A DNA stretch of 64,000 nt from the NCBI RefSeq assembly GCF_027925145.1, contig NZ_AP027130.1, positions 682,001 to 746,000 of the forward strand, written 5' to 3'. This stretch comes from Thermodesulfomicrobium sp. WS. Lineage in GTDB: Bacteria; Desulfobacterota; Desulfovibrionia; Desulfovibrionales; Desulfomicrobiaceae. The notes under the pieces are model-generated. The model was not told the origin of the DNA, ran no database searches, and saw only the letters and a program-made list of their open reading frames with translations. The translations under genes and the position numbers were made by a program. Below are positions 31,001-42,051 of this stretch, in pieces (position 1 is the stretch's first letter; every line of letters starts with the position of its first letter).

Positions 31001-31418
31001 GGGTGGCGTCGTCGGTGAGCACACTTGCCCCGGCGCTCAAACCAAAGCGGCTGATGAGGCGCTGGCAAAAACCATGGATGGTGCAGATGGGGGCCTGATC
31101 CATGGCCAGGCGTGCCGCCGCCAGACGGGCCGCCACGGGGATGCCGCGGGCCTCGGCCTCCTGGAGTCGGCGCGAGACGACATCGTCGCTGGAGGCGGTG
31201 TGCTGGTGCAGACAGTGTGTTAGACGTTGGGTGAGGCGGGAGCGCAGTTCCTGGGTGGCGGCGTCGGTGAAGGTGACCGTGAGGATGCGCTCTACCGGGA
31301 TGCCCTCCAGGGCCACCAGGCGGATGAAGAGGACCTCCAGCGCGTAGGTCTTGCCGGTTCCGGCGCTGGCCTCCACGAGTACGCGGCCGGAAAGGGGGAG
31401 CGAGAAGAGATCCGTCAT
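28002..31418 (-). CDS. recB: RecBCD helicase-nuclease subunit RecB
   Basis: 3'-5' UvrD-type helicase with C-terminal nuclease, the core of RecBCD. 1138 aa, near the family's usual length. Walker A VEASAGTGKTY is at residues about 15-25, motif II is VDEFQDTD, and LTVHKSKGLEF is motif V. The nuclease domain near the C-terminus shows GFVDAVLEI...VVDWKT, the D-(D)xK catalytic set. The ATG at 31418 overlaps the recC stop (ATGA). The gene order recC-recB-recD differs from E. coli only by lacking ptr. Confidence 0.96.
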   Translation of the reverse strand: MTDLFSLPLSGRVLVEASAGTGKTYALEVLFIRLVALEGIPVERILTVTFTDAATQELRSRLTQRLTHCLHQHTASSDDVVSRRLQEAEARGIPVAARLAAARLAMDQAPICTIHGFCQRLISRFGLSAGASVLTDDATPIIHHAAMELWRQELCTLPGLAGQYLRQTLRVEDLEALLRTPALVQNPVIHPAAAPADTHELFRTQDAFQDALQAVQTHWDAIEETVAWCETHRQTVFLGNRIRQATLANALDAWRKFLATPWKKPASQDQDALAKLLPEHLGKCLKAGADPNFSPLVHLAAAWSAAQDFYRAADLWRTQTLARAASTAMARIDAASEELGMHGFDALIRQAAALVNDPEICRQAQETWRVAIVDEFQDTDALQEHILARIFDHAGHCRITVGDPKQAIYAFRGADIHVYFAAADRCEHRATLDTNYRAAPALVAAVNAIFSRHANAFVLPQMAFSPVQPRPAPWPSIEDPDCSAACVLWRVPAPDTPLPQGTVIPLLAQAVAAEISRLLARGVRLDGAPIHPGHIAVLVDTRAQMLPIARALEAARIPCILEEDASVLDSAEAQGVLALLFAMREPRCRARVATALATDFMGFDASAIRELHDHPEELEIWQERFAEAMEVWRRQGVVAALEWLFTQVHTRERLLRLPQGLRAVTNLDHLLELLQLHESRGATPAALCRLVASPDTASNNTTKLRPIGAQEAVRILTVHKSKGLEFMIVFCPYLFRATDAGSPPLFYHDQRGLVMDLEGGADAQTRAREEALAEGVRLAYVALTRASHRLYFAWGRINQADTSGLAWVLHRIRGGRWKGFRDADVDADLASLAHTISIQVLPTTQPQPWTPPQPAWELRITPWTRALPPPPAIHSFTGLMRGLSQTRPGWDDEPPKAAAARPETPREIWDIAQFPRGPVAGSCVHAIWENIAANMPVEDAVRRGLETYGLDLRWTDALTQMVEHVLHADLGGLCLREHQGWVAEMEFLLPTQGLSRMELAAMTRSFNGRTPPFARDVGSGWITGFVDAVLEIHGRYYVVDWKTHLLGETPEAYTPAAMAKIMEEHGYDLQAALYLAALDRLLAARMPGCDPLELLGGAFFLFVRGIHPRYPGHGIVHIPAHPPTIHAMRSRLCSLPQS

Positions 31419-34400
31419 GGCGCGGCCTCGGGGAGCATGGGGACGAGCAGGCGCTGTGCCAGATCGTGGGATTCGTCCCAATGCGGGGTGTCGGGAAAGC
31501 AGAGGCGCAGATAGGGGTCCTGGTTTTCGGGGAAGGGGCCGTCTGTCCAGACTTTGACCATCTCGTGATGTGCCGAGTCGTGGCCTTTGGACGCGTATGT
31601 CTGGGCATACTTGAGGCACGCCTTGGGGAGCAGGGCCACAGGGCGGGTATGGGCCTCGAGCCAAAGTTCTATGGCCGCACGCAGGCGGTCTTTGCTTTCT
31701 TTCGGGTCGAGGACTGGCTTGGTGATGGTGTGGTCTTCGGTGATGAGGGTGACCTGATCGGCCGCGCGCGTCGCCCCGGCCACGATCCGCGTGAGGGAGA
31801 GGCGCAGGAGATCTTGGGTCTTGAGGGTGGCAGGCCGGTAGAGCACGATGCCTTCTGCGCCCAGAGGCAGCGTCCCGCAAAGCGTGATTCCCTCCTCTTC
31901 CACCCAAAAGGGCTGGGGCCGGATCCCGTGCGGGGCTCGAGCGCGGATGCGCTGAGCCATGTCCATCACCTGATCGATGGTGGGAGCGACGAAGGCGTCA
32001 CCGCCTGGGGTGTCGGGGATGACCTGCCAGGCGTGGGCGGTCCGTATGAGTTCGGTGCAGGAAGCGCCGCTCTGGGCAAGCTCCAAGAGTGCGCCCTTGA
32101 GGCGGTGGAGTGTCCGGTGCGTCGGCGCGCCCCAAGGCTCGTCGTCGGGGAGGTCTTCTTCGCGCACCTGCGGCCGGATCCCCAAGGCGTGCAGAAGCGT
32201 ACGGCAGGGGTGGGCGAGGTCGCGGATCAGGCGGTCAAGCTCCAGTTCCGCCGGCATCTGGGGCCGGGGAAGGGGGTGCCGGAAGAATGGCGGTCGGAGC
32301 CGCTGGGGACGGAGAAAGGCGTGCGCCTCCTGCAGACGGCAGGGGGTCAAGGTAGGCCAGGGAAACGAGACATCGAGGGCGCGGGGGTGGAAGGCGAAGA
32401 CCGGGTGCGTGGTGACCAGGGCCGTGGAAGGGGGGGCGCCGTCTACGGTGGCGCGGCTATCGAGGTGTTCCAGGAGGCTGATGAGCACTGGAGACGGGCC
32501 TTGGGCCGAGGGCCCTGCGCTGGGGGCGAAAAGGAGCAGATGTTCACGGGCAGAGAGCAGTGCCTCCAAAAAGAGGCCGCGGTCGTCGTCGGTGGGGTTG
32601 CGGTCTCCTGGCTGGGGATGCGCGGCGGTTAGGTCGATGCTCGGGGCTGTTTGGGCACGTGGAAAGCTGCCCGCAGCCAGCCCCAAAAAGGCCACCACGC
32701 GGAAAGGCACGGCGCGCATGGGCCGCGGGGCGCAGAAGGTCATGCCGCGGGCGAGAAATTCCCCCTCCTGGGGTTCGCCGCCGAGGGTGCGCTCCAGGGC
32801 CAGGACCATGGAGCGGCCGCAGGCCGTAGGGCGACCGGCGTCTTTCCATGCGCTCAGGGTTTCGGCGATGCCTCGGCGAAGTTGTTCCGGAGCGCCGCTT
32901 CCTTGAGCAGGCCAAAAGGTTTCGAGTATCCAGGGCAGGATCCGCTCCCAGTCCGGGGCAGGGCTTTGGACCCATTGGCAGAGGCGCTCCAGGTGCTCCA
33001 GCCACAGGGCGCAGGCGGCGAAAAGCTCACGGTCCTCGCTTGGGCCAAGGGCCAGGGGGGCGACCCCTTGGATGGTGCCGTGGTGGTCGCCGGTGATGGC
33101 CCCGAGGGCCAGGCGCGTAAGTCCGGCGCGCCAGGTGCCGATGGCGCTGGGTGGCGCACCATGTCTTTGCCGGAAGGCCGCGTCGATCCCCCACGCAATG
33201 CCTGCCTGCGCGAGCCAGGTCTGCAGACGCAGGCAGGCGTCTTCGGAAAGTCCAAGAAGGCTCCGTGTGGGCGTGGCGGAGAAGAGTTCCTGCACGCGGC
33301 TGCGCTCCAGGCGGCCGGCGGCGGTGCGCAGAAGGTCCAGGAGGAAGCGGACTTCTTGATGGATGTGCCCATGGTCCGCCACGGTGTACGTGATCTCGGG
33401 GGAGTTGCTGCCGAAGACCGCATGGATGAGGGGGGCGTAGGTCTCCATGTCCGCCGTGATGGCCAGGATGTGGTGCGGCTCCAAGGAGGTGTCGGTCTGC
33501 AGAAGGTGCAGGACGCGCTCCCGCAGGACCTCCACTTCTCGGCGGGCAGTCGGGCAGAGGTGGACTTCCATATGGGTGCGGCTTCGAGGAAAATCTCGAA
33601 TTTCTGGGGAAGGTGGCAGGTGGAGCAGGTCCGCGTGCAGGCAGTCCAAAAGGGTGTCTTGTGCTGGCGGCGCAAAGATGGGCACGAGTCCGGCGCGCTC
33701 CTCAAAACGATCTACGGCCTCCCGAAGCGAGGCGCCGAGCAGGGCGAGGAGCTGGGCCGCACTTCCTTCCTCCTGGGCGCGTCGCCGTCCCCAGGCATGG
33801 GGAGACGGGGAGAGCAGGTAGACGCGTACGGGCAGGTGTTCGCCCAGGGCCGCCAGGAGCTCTCCGAAATGGGGGGGCAAGCTGGAGATGCCAAAGACCG
33901 CCAGGCGGTGGGGCAGACCCTCCGGGGGTGGGCCGTGGCGCAGCACCTCGATCATGGCCAGGGTGAGGGCGGCGCGGTGGCTTTCTTCCTCGCCGCGCAC
34001 CACGCGCTGCCAAAGCCGCCGCTGCCAGTCTTCGGAAGCCCGGTTTTCCGGGCCGATCTCGCCGCACGGCACGCCTTGCTGCCACTTGGCGAGCCAATGG
34101 GGACGAAAGAGCTGGTAGCGCTCGAAGACTGAGGCCAGGGCCAGGGCCTGTCCCATGCGCTGGCGCGGTAAGGAGGCGGTCGCCCCCTCACCCATCAAGG
34201 CGCCTTCGTCTTCCAGCGCCGCCATCAAGCGCCACAGCAGCCGGGAGGCGGAAAGCGGGCGCCGCGCGCCGGGAAGGCACAGCCGGCGGGCGAGATCGTG
34301 CAGCAAGGCCGCGGGGAAAGGGAAGCGCACCCCGGCGCAGATGCCGTGCTCCTGGGCCAAGGTCATGGCCAGGTAGCGTTCCATGCCCCGGGACTGGACC

Positions 34401-34504
34401 ACCACGGTCTCCTGGGTGAGGGGCGAAGGGCTGTCCTTGAGGTGGTCGGCGAGGAGGGTTGCCAGGTATTCCAGGCGGTTGGAGAGAAAGACCGTCAGCG
34501 CCAT
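31415..34504 (-). CDS. recC: RecBCD subunit RecC
   Basis: Helicase-like scaffold subunit of RecBCD that holds the split strands and, in E. coli, recognises Chi. 1029 aa, starting LTVFLSNRLEYLA followed by VVVQSRGMERYLAM, a signature of the N-terminal helicase-like domain. Consistent with a pseudo-helicase, no intact Walker A is seen. It starts 3 nt after the HD-hydrolase stop and overlaps recB by 4 nt. Chi specificity cannot be predicted from the sequence here. Confidence 0.95.
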   Translation of the reverse strand: MALTVFLSNRLEYLATLLADHLKDSPSPLTQETVVVQSRGMERYLAMTLAQEHGICAGVRFPFPAALLHDLARRLCLPGARRPLSASRLLWRLMAALEDEGALMGEGATASLPRQRMGQALALASVFERYQLFRPHWLAKWQQGVPCGEIGPENRASEDWQRRLWQRVVRGEEESHRAALTLAMIEVLRHGPPPEGLPHRLAVFGISSLPPHFGELLAALGEHLPVRVYLLSPSPHAWGRRRAQEEGSAAQLLALLGASLREAVDRFEERAGLVPIFAPPAQDTLLDCLHADLLHLPPSPEIRDFPRSRTHMEVHLCPTARREVEVLRERVLHLLQTDTSLEPHHILAITADMETYAPLIHAVFGSNSPEITYTVADHGHIHQEVRFLLDLLRTAAGRLERSRVQELFSATPTRSLLGLSEDACLRLQTWLAQAGIAWGIDAAFRQRHGAPPSAIGTWRAGLTRLALGAITGDHHGTIQGVAPLALGPSEDRELFAACALWLEHLERLCQWVQSPAPDWERILPWILETFWPAQGSGAPEQLRRGIAETLSAWKDAGRPTACGRSMVLALERTLGGEPQEGEFLARGMTFCAPRPMRAVPFRVVAFLGLAAGSFPRAQTAPSIDLTAAHPQPGDRNPTDDDRGLFLEALLSAREHLLLFAPSAGPSAQGPSPVLISLLEHLDSRATVDGAPPSTALVTTHPVFAFHPRALDVSFPWPTLTPCRLQEAHAFLRPQRLRPPFFRHPLPRPQMPAELELDRLIRDLAHPCRTLLHALGIRPQVREEDLPDDEPWGAPTHRTLHRLKGALLELAQSGASCTELIRTAHAWQVIPDTPGGDAFVAPTIDQVMDMAQRIRARAPHGIRPQPFWVEEEGITLCGTLPLGAEGIVLYRPATLKTQDLLRLSLTRIVAGATRAADQVTLITEDHTITKPVLDPKESKDRLRAAIELWLEAHTRPVALLPKACLKYAQTYASKGHDSAHHEMVKVWTDGPFPENQDPYLRLCFPDTPHWDESHDLAQRLLVPMLPEAAP

Positions 34505-36093: not shown

Positions 36094-36441
36094 TTACAGG
36101 GAGCGATCCACCAGCACGCCTACGGTCTCTTCGATGGCCGCAGCCAGGCGCAGGATGTCGTCCGGCGGAATCTTGCGAATGAGTTTGTCGGTCTGCGGGT
36201 CGCGGACCTCCACCTGGAGACGATCCGTGGAGTCATCCACATGGAAACGGAGCTCCACACCGAGCGAGGCCATGTAGGCGCTCATGGCGTCCGCCACTTC
36301 CTCGACTTGCTCGCGGGAAGGGGGCAGCGACGGCACGGGCTGCCGTTCCACGTTGGGGTCACGCTGGGGCTGGCGGTCCGAGGTCCAATCGGCCGCCGGT
36401 ACCTGGGGATTCTGAACAGCGATGGCGGCAAGAGGATTCAT
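36094..36441 (-). CDS. flaG: FlaG-family flagellar protein
   Basis: 115-aa FlaG protein, thought to influence flagellar filament length. The C-terminal half (residues about 45-115) is the conserved part: GVELRFHVDD, LQVEVRDPQTDKLIRKIPPDDIL and LAAAIEETVGVLVDR. The N-terminal 40 residues are a Pro/Gln-rich linker. GGAGG lies 7 nt before the ATG. Divergent from the flagellin gene and preceded by an almost perfect sigma-28 promoter (36484-36510). Confidence 0.92.
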   Translation of the reverse strand: MNPLAAIAVQNPQVPAADWTSDRQPQRDPNVERQPVPSLPPSREQVEEVADAMSAYMASLGVELRFHVDDSTDRLQVEVRDPQTDKLIRKIPPDDILRLAAAIEETVGVLVDRSL

Positions 36442-36650: not shown

Positions 36651-37595
36651 ATGTCTTTGGTCATTAACCACAATTTGATGGCGATGAACGCCGCCAGAAA
36701 TTTGACCCAGTCCTACGGCGCGCTGTCCACCTCCACGCGCCGGCTGTCCTCAGGCCTGCGGGTGGGCACCGCGGCGGACGATGCCGCGGGCCTTGCCATC
36801 CGCGAGCTCATGCGCGCGGACATCGCCTCCCTCAAGCAGGGCATCCGCAACGCCAACGACGCCATTTCCCTCATCCAGACCGCCGACGGCGCCCTTCAGG
36901 TCATCGATGAAAAGCTCATCCGTATGAAGGAACTGGCCGAACAGGCGGCCACCGGCACCTACACCTCGGACCAGCGCCTCATCATCGACTCCGAGTACCA
37001 GGCCATGGCCTCGGAAATCACCCGAATCGCCAACGCCACCAACTTCAACGGTATCTACCTCTTGAATGGCAATCTTTCGGCATCCACTCCGCATGTGGCA
37101 AGCTGGGCCAGCTCTCATAATGGTTCAGGACTGGCCTCCACCGGCCCGCTCAAGGTGCACTTTGGCACGGGCAACAGCTCTGCCGAGGACTACTACTACA
37201 TCGCCATCCAGACGGCCACGGCTTCGGCCCTGGGTGTGGGCAACCAGGCGGATGTCAACCGGGACAACGGCTCCGGCGTAGCAGGGGCCGGCTTTAGCAT
37301 CTCCACCCAGCAGGCGGCGCAACAGGCCCTGGAGGCCCTCAATGCGGCTATCGTCTCCAAGGACAACATCCGCGCCAATCTGGGCGCGCTCCAGAACCGG
37401 CTGCAGAACACCATCACCAACCTGCAGATCCAGGCGGAGAACCTGCAGGCTGCGGAGTCGCGGATTTCCGACGCCGACGTGGCCCAGGAGATGACCCAGT
37501 TCGTCCGCAACCAGATCCTCACCCAGTCGGCAGTGGCCATGCTCTCGCAGGCCAACCAGTTGCCGCAGATGGCCATGCAGCTCATCCAGGGATAG
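36651..37595 (+). CDS. fliC: Flagellin
   Basis: Filament subunit exported by the flagellar type III system. 314 aa with the two conserved terminal domains that form D0/D1: N-terminal SLVINHNLMAMNAARNL to about residue 140 (RLSSGLRVGTAADDAAGLAI) and C-terminal from about residue 225 (NLQAAESRISDADVAQEM). The variable centre (residues about 140-220) is short, giving a small-domain filament. AAGGAGG precedes the ATG. Only one flagellin gene is in the window. flaG is divergent, and rnc is convergent. Confidence 0.97.
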   Translation: MSLVINHNLMAMNAARNLTQSYGALSTSTRRLSSGLRVGTAADDAAGLAIRELMRADIASLKQGIRNANDAISLIQTADGALQVIDEKLIRMKELAEQAATGTYTSDQRLIIDSEYQAMASEITRIANATNFNGIYLLNGNLSASTPHVASWASSHNGSGLASTGPLKVHFGTGNSSAEDYYYIAIQTATASALGVGNQADVNRDNGSGVAGAGFSISTQQAAQQALEALNAAIVSKDNIRANLGALQNRLQNTITNLQIQAENLQAAESRISDADVAQEMTQFVRNQILTQSAVAMLSQANQLPQMAMQLIQG

Positions 37596-37651: not shown

Positions 37652-37675
37652 GCCGGGGTCCGTCAGGGCCCCGGC
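37652..37675. terminator. GC-rich hairpin between flagellin and rnc
   Basis: GCCGGGG (37652-37658) and CCCCGGC (37669-37675) with a 10-nt loop, 56 nt past the flagellin stop and over the rnc stop codon. No T run on either strand, so termination would need Rho or is weak. Confidence 0.4.
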
Positions 37676-38400
37676 TCCAGAAGCCCTGGGCCATGGGCGT
37701 CGTTCTCGGTGAGTGCCTGGAGCGCCGCCGCTGCCGCCGCTTGCTCCGCCTTGCGGATGCTGGTCTCCCAGGCGCAAAAGCTCTGGCCGTCGGGCACGGT
37801 GACCTGCACGTGGTATTCTTTGGCGTGCTCGGGGCCGCGACTGGCAAGCAGGGTGTAGGTCGGCCGCTGCCGCCACCGGCTTTGCGTATATTCTTGCAAT
37901 TTGCTTTTGAAGTCCGCCGGTCGGAAGGTCTCGGGCGGCGATGGCCATTTGCCGGCAAACAGATGGTCCACCAAGGCGCATGCCGGCGCCAATCCTCCAT
38001 CAAGAAAAAGGGCGCCCAGCAACGCTTCCAGGGCGTCGCTGACTACGGAATTTTTTTCCCGTCCCCCTTGCGCCTCCTCTCCTCGCCCCAATAAGATCCA
38101 TTCATGCAGCCCGATGGTGCGGGCCGCTTCCGCCAAGGCAGCCTCACTGACCAGGGCAGAGCGCATCTTGGTGAGGTGCCCTTCCTGGGCATGGGGAAAG
38201 CGGGTGTAGAGGGCGTGGCTCACGGCCAGTTCGAGCACGGCGTCCCCCAGAAATTCCAGGCGTTCATTGCTTTCGGTTTGGTGTTCATTGGCATGGGAGC
38301 TATGGGTAAGGGCCTGGATGAACAGCTTGACTTGCCGGGGTTGGTAGGCGAGCATGCGATGCAATTCATGTAGGACACGTTGGAGAGAATCCTCGGACAT
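37663..38400 (-). CDS. rnc: Ribonuclease III
   Basis: Double-strand-specific endoribonuclease for rRNA and mRNA processing. 245 aa. The catalytic signature ERLEFLGDAVLEL is at residues about 42-54 and the second acidic cluster is DALEALLGALFLD. The C-terminal double-stranded RNA-binding domain spans residues about 160-232. The start ATG is 11 nt from the divergent start of the acyl-CoA synthetase-like gene; GGAG lies 7 nt upstream. Confidence 0.96.
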   Translation of the reverse strand: MSEDSLQRVLHELHRMLAYQPRQVKLFIQALTHSSHANEHQTESNERLEFLGDAVLELAVSHALYTRFPHAQEGHLTKMRSALVSEAALAEAARTIGLHEWILLGRGEEAQGGREKNSVVSDALEALLGALFLDGGLAPACALVDHLFAGKWPSPPETFRPADFKSKLQEYTQSRWRQRPTYTLLASRGPEHAKEYHVQVTVPDGQSFCAWETSIRKAEQAAAAAALQALTENDAHGPGLLEPGP

Positions 38401-38411
38401 TACGGAACTCC

Positions 38412-40469
38412 ATGCAAGACATTCATGTGGGAGCGCTTTTTTCCCCCCAGGCAGTGGCTGTCGTCGGCCCGTGCCATGAAGAAGGGACCGTGGCGGCACG
38501 GTTTTGGGCACGGCTGCGGGAGTGGGCCTATCAGGGCGCTGTGACGGCAGTCAATTGCCGGGACTGTCTGCCAGAAACCCTGACGCTTGCTGGGGTGGAC
38601 TTGGCTGTGGTCTGCCTTCCACCGGAGCAAGTGCCCGGGGCCGTGGAGCGGCTTGCCCGTCTCGGGGTGCGCGCTGCCTTGGTTCCCGGCAGCGGCTTTG
38701 CCGATCGGGGCGGCGAAGGATATTTCTTGGAGCAACGTCTGGCCGCCGTGGCGCGGGAGACCAATATGGCGGTGCTCGGCCCGCATTGTCTGGGGGTGGT
38801 CTCCTGGCCGGAAGGGCTCAACGCCTCGCTTTTGGAAAAGCTTCCCCCATCGGGAGGGGTGGCGTTCTTCTCCCCATCGGCCACGGTGTCCGGAGCCGTG
38901 GTGGACTGGGCCGTGGCCGAAGGCGTGGGCCTTTCTCGTCTGGCGGCCCTGGGGAACCGTGCGGCGGTGGATGAGGCCTCGATCCTGCAGTATTTGGCGG
39001 AAGACGGAGAAACCCGCGTCATTGCCGGGTATCTCGAAGGGGTGTTTGCTGCCCGGCGTTTTGCCCGGGTGAGCCAGACCGTCACTCGGGTGAAACCCGT
39101 GGTCATGCTCCTTGGCGGGCTCACCGCCCCAGGCAGGCAGGCCGTGGCCGCGGCAGCCGGACCCCTGGCGGGTTCGGAGGCGGCGTATCGCGCCGCCTTG
39201 CGCCAGGCCGGCATCATCGGCGTTTCCGACCTGGAGACCTTTCTCGATACCGTCAAGGCCTTTGCCTTGCTGCCCCAACCTTCCGGGCCGCATGTGGCAA
39301 TCCTTACCAATTCCGGTGGTGCCGGCGTCTTGGCCGCGGATGCCTTGAGTGCCACGCGGTTGGAGCTCGCCCGCTTCTCGCGGGCTACAGCCGAGGCCCT
39401 GCAGCGGCAGACCGGGGCGTGGCCCTCCAATCCGTTGGATCTTGGCGCCGAGGCCACGCCGGAAGACTTTGCGGCCGCCCTGCGCCTTGCCGTGGCGGAT
39501 CCACGAGTGCGCCTGGTATTGGCGGTCATCGCCCGTCCTGTGGGGACGGACGTGCAGGCCGTGCTGGAGGCCATGGCGCAGGTGGATCGCCAGGATACCC
39601 CTGTGGCGCTCTGTTTGGTCGGGGAGCGGCCGGGGGCGTTGGTGCGGCAGGTCCATGCCCAGGGGATCCCATGTTTTTCTTCTCCTGCAGCCGCAGCCCG
39701 GGCGCTTGACGCCATGCTCGCATACGGCTGCTGGCAGGAGGAGCCCTTCCCAGTGGAGGTGTGCTATCGTCGGGACAGCACCAAGGCGGAGCTGTGGTTG
39801 CGGGAGGCCATGAACGCGGGCCATCGGGATCTGGGCGGGCCGGCGGTGTATCCCCTGCTCGAGGCGTACGAGCTCCGGCACCCGGTAACGGAACTCGCCC
39901 GCACCAGTAAGACCGCGGCCCGCATCGCCCGCCGTTTGGGGGGGGCGGTGGCGCTCAAGATCGCTTCGCCACATATCCAGCGCAAAAGCGATGTGGACGG
40001 CGTGGAGCTTGGCCTGACGGACCCCGAGGCCGTGCGTCAGGGCTTTGCGCGGCTCACGCACCGGGTACAGCGCTTGCGGCCGGAGGCTTTTGTTTCCGGG
40101 TGCTGGGTCCAGGAGATGGTTGTTGGCCCTGTGGTGGAGGCGCGGATATGGGCGGTGCGGGATCCTTTGTTTGGTCCGGTGGTTCGTCTGGGGTTGGTCG
40201 ACGGCGACCACCACGGAGTGAATGCTCGGTTGGCGCCCATTTCGCTCACCGATGCCAGCCGTATGGTGCGGGAGTTCACCCCCCTGGCGGCCAGCCGCGG
40301 CGGCAGACAGCCCATGCATCTGCGGGCCTTGGAAGACGTGCTGCTCACTGTATCGCAGCTGACCTTGGATATGCCCGAACTCTATACCGTGGAGTTGGAG
40401 CCGGTGCTGGTCACCCCTCGGGGGGCATGGGTGGTGGATGCCCGGGTGTGTCTCGTGCCTGTGGAGTAG
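38412..40469 (+). CDS. Degenerate ADP-forming acyl-CoA synthetase-like protein
   Basis: 685-aa protein with the full alpha-beta fusion of NDP-forming acyl-CoA (acetyl-CoA) synthetases: CoA-binding Rossmann domain (residues about 5-130), two CoA-ligase domains (about 140-450) and a C-terminal ATP-grasp domain (about 470-685). Active homologues transfer phosphate through two histidines. Here the first, in the SHTGSLAG loop, aligns to Ala248 (AAAGPLAG), and the second, in the SPDIxHKSD loop, aligns to Arg524 (SPHIQRKSD, although a His sits at 521). So it is probably a non-catalytic or repurposed member. It is followed after 34 nt by the DRTGG protein gene. No GNAT domain is present, unlike Pat acetyltransferases, which are also degenerate in this region. 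Confidence 0.85.
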   Translation: MQDIHVGALFSPQAVAVVGPCHEEGTVAARFWARLREWAYQGAVTAVNCRDCLPETLTLAGVDLAVVCLPPEQVPGAVERLARLGVRAALVPGSGFADRGGEGYFLEQRLAAVARETNMAVLGPHCLGVVSWPEGLNASLLEKLPPSGGVAFFSPSATVSGAVVDWAVAEGVGLSRLAALGNRAAVDEASILQYLAEDGETRVIAGYLEGVFAARRFARVSQTVTRVKPVVMLLGGLTAPGRQAVAAAAGPLAGSEAAYRAALRQAGIIGVSDLETFLDTVKAFALLPQPSGPHVAILTNSGGAGVLAADALSATRLELARFSRATAEALQRQTGAWPSNPLDLGAEATPEDFAAALRLAVADPRVRLVLAVIARPVGTDVQAVLEAMAQVDRQDTPVALCLVGERPGALVRQVHAQGIPCFSSPAAAARALDAMLAYGCWQEEPFPVEVCYRRDSTKAELWLREAMNAGHRDLGGPAVYPLLEAYELRHPVTELARTSKTAARIARRLGGAVALKIASPHIQRKSDVDGVELGLTDPEAVRQGFARLTHRVQRLRPEAFVSGCWVQEMVVGPVVEARIWAVRDPLFGPVVRLGLVDGDHHGVNARLAPISLTDASRMVREFTPLAASRGGRQPMHLRALEDVLLTVSQLTLDMPELYTVELEPVLVTPRGAWVVDARVCLVPVE

Positions 40470-40503
40470 GATCAGTCAAAATCCTTTGCCAAGGAGAATG
40501 GGT

Positions 40504-41571
40504 ATGGCCGTTGGAATCTATATCGGCTCGACATCGAGCTATTCGGGCAAGAACATGGTCGCCATGGGCTTGGGCCTGCGGCTGCAAAAGGAAGGCTACC
40601 GCGTGGGCTACATGAAGCCTGTGGGTGCCTTGCCTATGGAAAAGAATGGCGTGCTGGGTGATGCCGATGCCTTTTTCGTGCAGGAGATTCTTGGGCTCAG
40701 TGAAGACCCTACACTGGTGACTCCAGTGGTAGTGGATCAAGATTTCAAGATGCGCGCCTTTGGGGGACGTTGCGAAGATTTGATGGGAAAAATCGTCTCC
40801 GCATACGAAAAATTGTCCCAGGACAAAGACGTCATGCTGGTTGCCGGGTCCGGCAGCATGTATTCGGGCAAGTACTGTGGCGTGGACGGGGTGAGTGTAG
40901 TGCGGAGTTTGGGCATCAAGGCCATCGTCATCGATCGCTACATGAAGGAGCTCAACTACGACTTCCTCGTCGTGCTGCGGGAGATTCTCGGTGACTTGCT
41001 TTTAGGGGTCCTTTTGAACGATATCCCGCCAAGTTTCCGCGATGAGCTCGATACCCTCCTGCATCCCTTTTTGGAGAGTAAGGGGGTCAAAGTGCTGGGC
41101 AAGATCCCGTCGGATCCCCTCATGGGGGCCATCAAGGTGGCGGACTTGGCCGAGCGCCTGGGCGGCCGCATTATCACGGCCCAGGCCAAGGCGGACCGGG
41201 TGGTGGAGAGTTTTCTCATCGGCACCATGCAGGTGGAAAACTTTATGACCCACTTCCGGAAAAACAAGAAGTCTGCCATTATCGTGGGTGGAGACCGTTC
41301 CGATGTGCAGCTTGTGGCCTTGGAAGGCCAGTGCCAATGTTTGGTGCTGACGGGAAATCTCTATCCCAACGATATCATCATGACTCGGGCGGAAGTCTTG
41401 GAGGTGCCCATCGTGGTGGTGCGCGACGATACGTTTACTGTGGCCAAGAAGATGGAAGCTATTCTCTCGCGGCACAAGCTGCGGGATCTCATCAAGATTC
41501 AGCATGGGTCCCAGCTGGTGAGCTCCATCATCGATTTTGCGTATATCAAAGAGGCCTTGGGATTGAAATAA
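40504..41571 (+). CDS. BioD-like/DRTGG protein (phosphotransacetylase N-terminal type)
   Basis: 355-aa cytosolic protein resembling the regulatory N-terminal half of long phosphate acetyltransferases. Residues 1-210 are a BioD-like P-loop domain with GSTSSYSGKN (residues 7-16; Asn replaces the usual Ser/Thr after Lys), GYMKPVGA and a GSGSM Walker-B-like region. Residues about 220-330 are a DRTGG domain, with DRSD where the family usually has DRTGG-like sequence. The catalytic PTA_PTB domain is absent. I chose the ATG at 40504 (AAGGAG 7 nt upstream) over 40498. Probably co-transcribed with the acyl-CoA synthetase-like gene, and likely a sensor rather than an enzyme, by inference. Confidence 0.82.
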   Translation: MAVGIYIGSTSSYSGKNMVAMGLGLRLQKEGYRVGYMKPVGALPMEKNGVLGDADAFFVQEILGLSEDPTLVTPVVVDQDFKMRAFGGRCEDLMGKIVSAYEKLSQDKDVMLVAGSGSMYSGKYCGVDGVSVVRSLGIKAIVIDRYMKELNYDFLVVLREILGDLLLGVLLNDIPPSFRDELDTLLHPFLESKGVKVLGKIPSDPLMGAIKVADLAERLGGRIITAQAKADRVVESFLIGTMQVENFMTHFRKNKKSAIIVGGDRSDVQLVALEGQCQCLVLTGNLYPNDIIMTRAEVLEVPIVVVRDDTFTVAKKMEAILSRHKLRDLIKIQHGSQLVSSIIDFAYIKEALGLK

Positions 41572-41589: not shown

Positions 41590-42051
41590 TTACGCCATGC
41601 CCGGGTCCTGGGGGAGTCCTGGGGCCTGGGCCGCCTGTTTGGCGAGCACGTCGCAGCGTTCATTTTCCGGATGGCCGGCGTGGCCCCGGATCCACTGGAA
41701 GTCCACGTGGTGGCGGTTGAGCAAGGCAATGAGGCGCTGCCAGAGGTCCTGGTTTTTGACGGGTTTTTTGTCGGCGGTTTTCCATCCCCGCTTCTGCCAT
41801 GCCGGCAGCCACCCCTTGACGATGGCGTCGTGGACGTAGCGGGAGTCGGTGATCACCTGCACGTGGCAGGGCCGATTGAGGGCGGCGAGTCCCTCGATGA
41901 CGGCGAGAAGTTCCATGCGGTTGTTGGTGGTATGGCAGAAGCCGCCGCAAAGTTCTTTTTCATGGCTCCCCCAGCGTAAGATGGCGGCCCATCCTCCCGG
42001 TCCAGGGTTGCCGAGGCTTGCGCCATCGGTAAAGAGGAGCACCTCGCTCAT
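41590..42051 (-). CDS. rnhA: Ribonuclease HI
   Basis: Cleaves RNA in RNA-DNA hybrids. 153 aa with the four catalytic acids in place: [11 protein letters not shown] (Asp), [13 protein letters not shown] (Glu), VITDSRYV (Asp) and [11 protein letters not shown] (Asp), plus the basic handle QKRGWK. The ATG overlaps the stop of the TPM-like gene by 4 nt. Confidence 0.96.

Follow-up and report, generated by a model that had tools for sequence, protein, structure and literature searches.

The window examined here, a stretch of 64,000 nucleotides, encodes a protein of 685 amino acids that is built like an ADP-forming acyl-CoA synthetase (ACD) and is very probably a pseudoenzyme. Its gene is directly followed by one for a free-standing DRTGG protein. 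According to our overall reading, to which we give roughly an even chance, the pseudoenzyme was derived in place from a catalytic ACD paired with the DRTGG protein, and was kept as a non-catalytic partner. The features considered are the following.

36651..37595, + strand: flagellin, outer syntenic marker
37663..38400, - strand: rnc (RNase III), divergent neighbour of the ACD-like gene
38412..40469, + strand: ACD-like protein, 685 aa, with Ala248 for the swinging-loop His and Arg524 for the ATP-grasp His (alignments, AlphaFold model)
38412..38816, + strand: CoA-binding subdomain 1, aa 1-135, with the CoA loop GAS...GKxG changed to GPC...GTxA
39117..39194, + strand: swinging-loop segment, aa 236-261, GLTAPGRQAVAAAAGPLAGSEAAYRA, Ala248 codon at 39153-39155
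39957..40013, + strand: ATP-grasp relay motif KIASPHIQRKSDVDGVELG, aa 516-534, Arg524 codon CGC at 39981-39983
40149..40400, + strand: eroded ATP-grasp positions G580W, G596V, G597D, E601H, D602G and N663E
40504..41571, + strand: free-standing AAA_26 + DRTGG protein (Pfam), 355 aa, 34 bp past the ACD-like stop, with P-loop GSTSSYSGKN and GGDRSD intact
41590..42050, - strand: rnhA, convergent, closing the two-gene unit

The earlier note, made from the sequence alone, held that the 685-residue protein keeps the full ACD domain set, and both Pfam and the predicted fold bear this out. Pfam reports CoA_binding_2, Succ_CoA_lig, a weak Ligase_CoA_2 and ATP-grasp_5, in that order, and the CoA-binding, flavodoxin-like, ligase-CoA and ATP-grasp subdomains of ACDs are all present. 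The AlphaFold model has a mean pLDDT of 89.4, with the fold predicted intact, and aligns with 8wzu with a Z of 45.2 and an rmsd of 2.3 Å over 594 residues. PatZ is also among the best structural matches (Z of 38.1, rmsd of 4.0, 666 residues aligned). Foldseek also gave a weak match to E. coli 3dmy. In comparison with the ACDs Nmar_0206 and Korarchaeum ACD1, the protein presents the same subdomain order (1-2-5-4-3), the same fold and approximately 24-30% identity, yet it lacks both relay histidines, and its phosphate-binding, CoA-loop and Mg-ATP motifs are altered. No NCBIfam cut-off was reached, TIGR02717 giving 338 bits against a curated cut-off of 567. Given that the curated ACD models fall this far under their cut-offs, annotation by similarity only would wrongly assign an ADP-forming acetyl-CoA synthetase to such genomes.

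The protein was aligned against 8wzu, Korarchaeum ACD1 alpha and beta, PH0766 and PH1788/1789. In Nmar_0206, the relay runs from ATP to H535, then to H256 and to the acyl group (PMC11494057). Alignment to the solved ACDs places Ala248 at H256 of the swinging loop and Arg524 at H535 of the ATP-grasp domain, in exact agreement with the two replacements named in the earlier note; neither the swinging-loop phosphohistidine nor the ATP-grasp relay histidine is present. Judging from these residues, the phosphoryl relay as described for ACDs cannot run in this protein. Replacing the swinging-loop histidine by alanine kills activity in the superfamily member DddX (PMC8163506). With this histidine gone, no phosphohistidine would form, and acyl-CoA + ADP + Pi <-> acid + CoA + ATP would not be catalyzed.

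A catalytic histidine at a shifted position was considered and rejected. There is no histidine around position 248, and no neighbouring histidine or cysteine that could substitute for it. The sole histidine in the vicinity of Arg524 is His521, three residues before it. Fully intact relatives have this histidine too (ASPHISHKSD in L025), and since it stands there alongside the normal histidine, it is no obvious replacement. A sequencing or frame error was likewise rejected: the frame is open, Ala248 is common to a 93%-identical congener, and Arg524 alone depends on a single base (CGC in the window versus CAC in that congener). Arg524 was found only in the window genome, and the loss of the histidine at 248 is common to the whole sampled genus, with a glycine there in a 76%-identical congener. 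Given that the 93% congener retains CAC at 524, the swinging-loop histidine was lost before the ATP-grasp histidine in the window's genus.

The changes extend well beyond the two histidines, as intact ACDs share 97 invariant positions and 30 of these are changed in the window's protein. The phosphate-binding SQSG has become SPSA, and the swinging-loop SHT is lost entirely, with S247A and T249A besides the change at 248. Among the eroded ATP-grasp positions is N663, presumably an Mg ligand, going by succinyl-CoA synthetase. The CoA loop is also variable in the Desulfomicrobium copies. Glu209, Asp676 and the NSGG motif are retained. Erosion of both the CoA loop and the Mg-ATP motifs weakens the idea of a simple acetyl-CoA or ATP sensor, and a ligand-sensing role finds no backing in the retained motifs. 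In a degraded group from another family (g22, g23 and g43), the invariant positions changed throughout the group number 0 of 64 outside the ATP-grasp half and 3 of 33 inside it. This confinement suggests the ATP side fails first.

For the adjoining gene, the claim of a Pta N-terminal type without the catalytic Pta domain holds with a corrected start: the likely start is the ATG at 40504, preceded by the ribosome binding site aaggag at 40491-40496, which yields 355 aa rather than the 377 aa obtained from 40438. According to Pfam, the protein has AAA_26 and DRTGG and lacks PTA_PTB. It hence shares both domains with the N-terminal AAA-DRTGG region of class II phosphotransacetylases, but is free-standing, without their catalytic domain. 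Its model has a pLDDT of 90.2. All 35 near-invariant positions are kept by the DRTGG proteins, including Gly15-Lys16 of the P-loop and the GGDR-D loop, whatever the state of the partner. PDB 2ioj, the DRTGG protein AF_1212 of Archaeoglobus, was among the hits; its gene probably adjoins that of the ACD AF_1211.

The start codons of rnc and of the ACD-like gene are only 11 bp apart (38400-38412) and divergent, so the promoters must overlap coding sequence. A consensus promoter scan found no sigma-70-like site. Downstream, no third partner gene was found; rnhA closes the pair on the opposite strand in many genomes. Upstream lie FlaG (36094-36441, - strand) and, near the flagellin and FlaG genes, a RecC-like exonuclease V gamma subunit with Exonuc_V_gamma and RecC_C (31415-34504, - strand).

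Relatives were obtained by searching the order Desulfovibrionales with each protein and then fetching the regions; genus g3 of the sample was taken to be Desulfomicrobium, a naming that we infer. The gene order flagellin-rnc-[ACD]-DRTGG is syntenic across families of the order, and in many cases rnhA comes next, on the opposite strand. As the pairing put forward in the earlier note implies, the two genes remain together in the window's genus and in all sampled Desulfomicrobium, and within the family only G044 splits them over contigs. Among 50 non-identical ACD copies of this locus (two without rnc in view), 13 have both histidines, 33 lack only the ATP-grasp one, three lack only the swinging-loop one, and a single copy, that of the window, has neither. 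At least one histidine is lost in 37 of the 48 ACDs with rnc in view. The ATP-grasp histidine is replaced by Tyr in all sampled Desulfomicrobium and by Ser, Asn, Arg or Asp elsewhere. The swinging-loop histidine is lost in the window's genus and in one other genome (G205, L129:5762-7849), where it independently became Arg with the ATP-grasp histidine kept; acetate kinase is present there, with no second canonical ACD. Given that most relatives with a degraded copy retain the swinging-loop histidine, some of them may still be enzymes.

Some genera have a fully intact ACD at the same rnc-linked locus. In many others the ACD is cleanly deleted and the DRTGG gene kept, with an rnc-DRTGG gap of mostly 200-500 bp; a solo DRTGG gene straight after rnc is found in L080, L091, L092, L093, L096, L101, L105, L107 and others. 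The DRTGG protein can therefore do without the ACD in some lineages, and since the solo copies are still approximately 70% identical to that of the window, they probably have a function of their own. In a maximum-likelihood tree, a quick one with several open forks and two long branches, the degraded copies and three intact ones form a clade with an SH-aLRT of 98. Parsimony requires a minimum of four changes for the ATP-grasp histidine and two for the swinging-loop histidine.

It is common for a free-standing DRTGG gene to follow an ACD gene, and such pairs extend to other Desulfobacterota and to a thorarchaeon. Both histidines are kept in each of the 21 ACDs sampled outside the window's locus, nearly all of which adjoin a DRTGG gene. 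The authors of a study on D. vulgaris lactate oxidation placed DVU3031, a DRTGG protein without a Pta domain, in an organic-acid region; they also noted ADP-forming ACS genes in the lactate-oxidation region, which stand in for pta-ack in six species (PMC4481167). Thus, one part of what the earlier note proposed stands, namely a non-catalytic ACD-like module beside a Pta-N-terminal-type protein, given the missing histidines, the conserved pair and the purifying selection described below. The claim of an undescribed system does not, since pairs with intact histidines are widespread and both gene families already feature in that study. The window's pair consists of the same two adjoining families as those pairs and DVU3031, but its ACD lacks both histidines where the sampled others keep both, and it is linked to rnc rather than to the lactate region. 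The unusual feature is the rnc-linked locus, not the ACD-DRTGG pairing. No paper on this locus was found in the literature search.

In the window genome, pta (class II, with its own DRTGG), ackA, lactate permease and PFOR lie together at 1.75 Mb, and there is one full acetate kinase. No second, canonical ACD was found. The genome has one Pat-type ACD-GNAT fusion of 918 aa (L002, G000:C1:1450183-1452279), in which, like in E. coli PatZ, the swinging-loop histidine region is gone and the ATP-grasp histidine position is kept (IEHPYAVGG). A canonical ACD is present in two other genera of the family (G003 and G044) and missing in the window's genus and in Desulfomicrobium, both of which still keep the rnc-linked copy. 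Most simply, both would have been present in the ancestor of the family, and the window's genus and Desulfomicrobium would later have lost the canonical ACD and kept the pseudoenzyme.

The syntenic locus, the intact relatives at the same place, the stepwise loss of histidines and the purifying selection together argue, by comparison, for an origin in place: a catalytic, DRTGG-paired ACD may have turned into a pseudoenzyme at this very site, losing its relay histidines one after the other. Acetate and ATP formation in the window genome would then be carried by Pta-AckA. That the protein acts as a regulatory or structural partner of DRTGG is about as probable as not; it may have been retained as a subunit without catalytic activity that probably binds the P-loop/DRTGG protein and modulates it, similar to Pat/PatZ, in which an inactive ACD domain modulates the GNAT domain. 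The analogy with Pat/PatZ lies in an ACD scaffold without the swinging-loop histidine, reported inactive and put to regulatory use. However, the ACD-like protein has no GNAT domain and hence is no type I-II acetyltransferase, it has a separate DRTGG partner instead, and PatZ retains the ATP-grasp histidine.

The main rival explanation, which we consider unlikely, is slow decay: with acetate made by Pta-AckA or by a second ACD, the rnc-linked ACD degrades and is then deleted, and DRTGG is kept independently. This would fit the clean loss of the gene from this locus in many genera and the joint erosion of several ligand motifs. It would also fit the accelerated evolution of the ACD: the median ratio of ACD to DRTGG amino-acid divergence is 3.62 in the window's family, versus 0.79 for pairs elsewhere, 1.56 for intact rnc-linked copies and 1.81 for the degraded copies of the other family. 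Degraded rnc-linked copies mostly co-occur with a second canonical ACD and intact ones are mostly the sole ACD (Fisher p 0.002), yet this association ignores kinship and includes the two copies without rnc in view, and is therefore suggestive only. On the other hand, the three genomes of the window's genus and the 16 of Desulfomicrobium all carry an intact, full-length frame. Pairwise NG86 dN/dS is 0.065 and 0.107 against the two congeners and 0.05-0.11 within Desulfomicrobium, far under neutrality, which indicates the sequence is maintained, less strictly than that of the partner. These values and the high confidence of the predicted fold also led us to reject a pseudogene, and the copy is kept even where no second ACD exists.

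Two further explanations grant the protein a ligand or a reaction. It is quite unlikely to be a sensor that binds acetyl-CoA as Pat does and passes the signal to DRTGG, Pta or PFOR. In Pat, the histidine-less ACD domain is inactive, yet it has a KD of 290 nM for acetyl-CoA and regulates the GNAT domain (PMC8556138). PatZ is structurally close, and class II Pta proteins, including that of this genome, have DRTGG-AAA as their N-terminal part. Nonetheless, no GNAT domain is attached, and the altered, variable CoA loop makes direct ligand sensing less sure than in Pat. It is likewise quite unlikely that the protein is still catalytic with altered chemistry, whereby members without the ATP-grasp histidine phosphorylate the swinging-loop one directly, as in succinyl-CoA synthetase and DddX, and the window's genus catalyzes another reaction on that scaffold. 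The 33 relatives lacking only the ATP-grasp histidine and the retained Glu209, Asp676 and NSGG would suit this, as would the direct contact between the swinging-loop histidine of DddX and the ATP gamma-phosphate (PMC8163506). For many relatives, catalysis with one histidine is plausible. It is not so for the window's genus, which lacks the swinging-loop histidine, Ser247 and Thr249, with no substitute nearby; Asn663 and Glu601 are also lost in the window's protein.

Extending the preferred reading of a non-catalytic DRTGG partner to the order, it is conceivable, if rather doubtful, that at one fixed site in Desulfovibrionales an energy-conserving ACD became, on several independent occasions, a signalling subunit without catalytic activity that serves a free-standing P-loop/DRTGG protein. 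If true, this repeated conversion would constitute a new two-protein metabolic sensor, with the window's genus and Desulfomicrobium keeping the pseudoenzyme without any catalytic ACD paralogue. The single syntenic locus presents a natural series of intact enzyme, single-histidine forms, double-histidine loss and full deletion, with the unchanged partner as an internal clock, which allows the conversion of an enzyme into a non-catalytic partner to be tested directly and draws attention to the conserved free-standing DRTGG protein. Two very fast-evolving ACDs were also observed at this locus: L083:7382-9472 (G003), with a branch length of 1.66 and a deletion at the ATP-grasp histidine motif, and L148:3461-5695 (G005), with a branch length of 1.03 and an insertion at the same motif.
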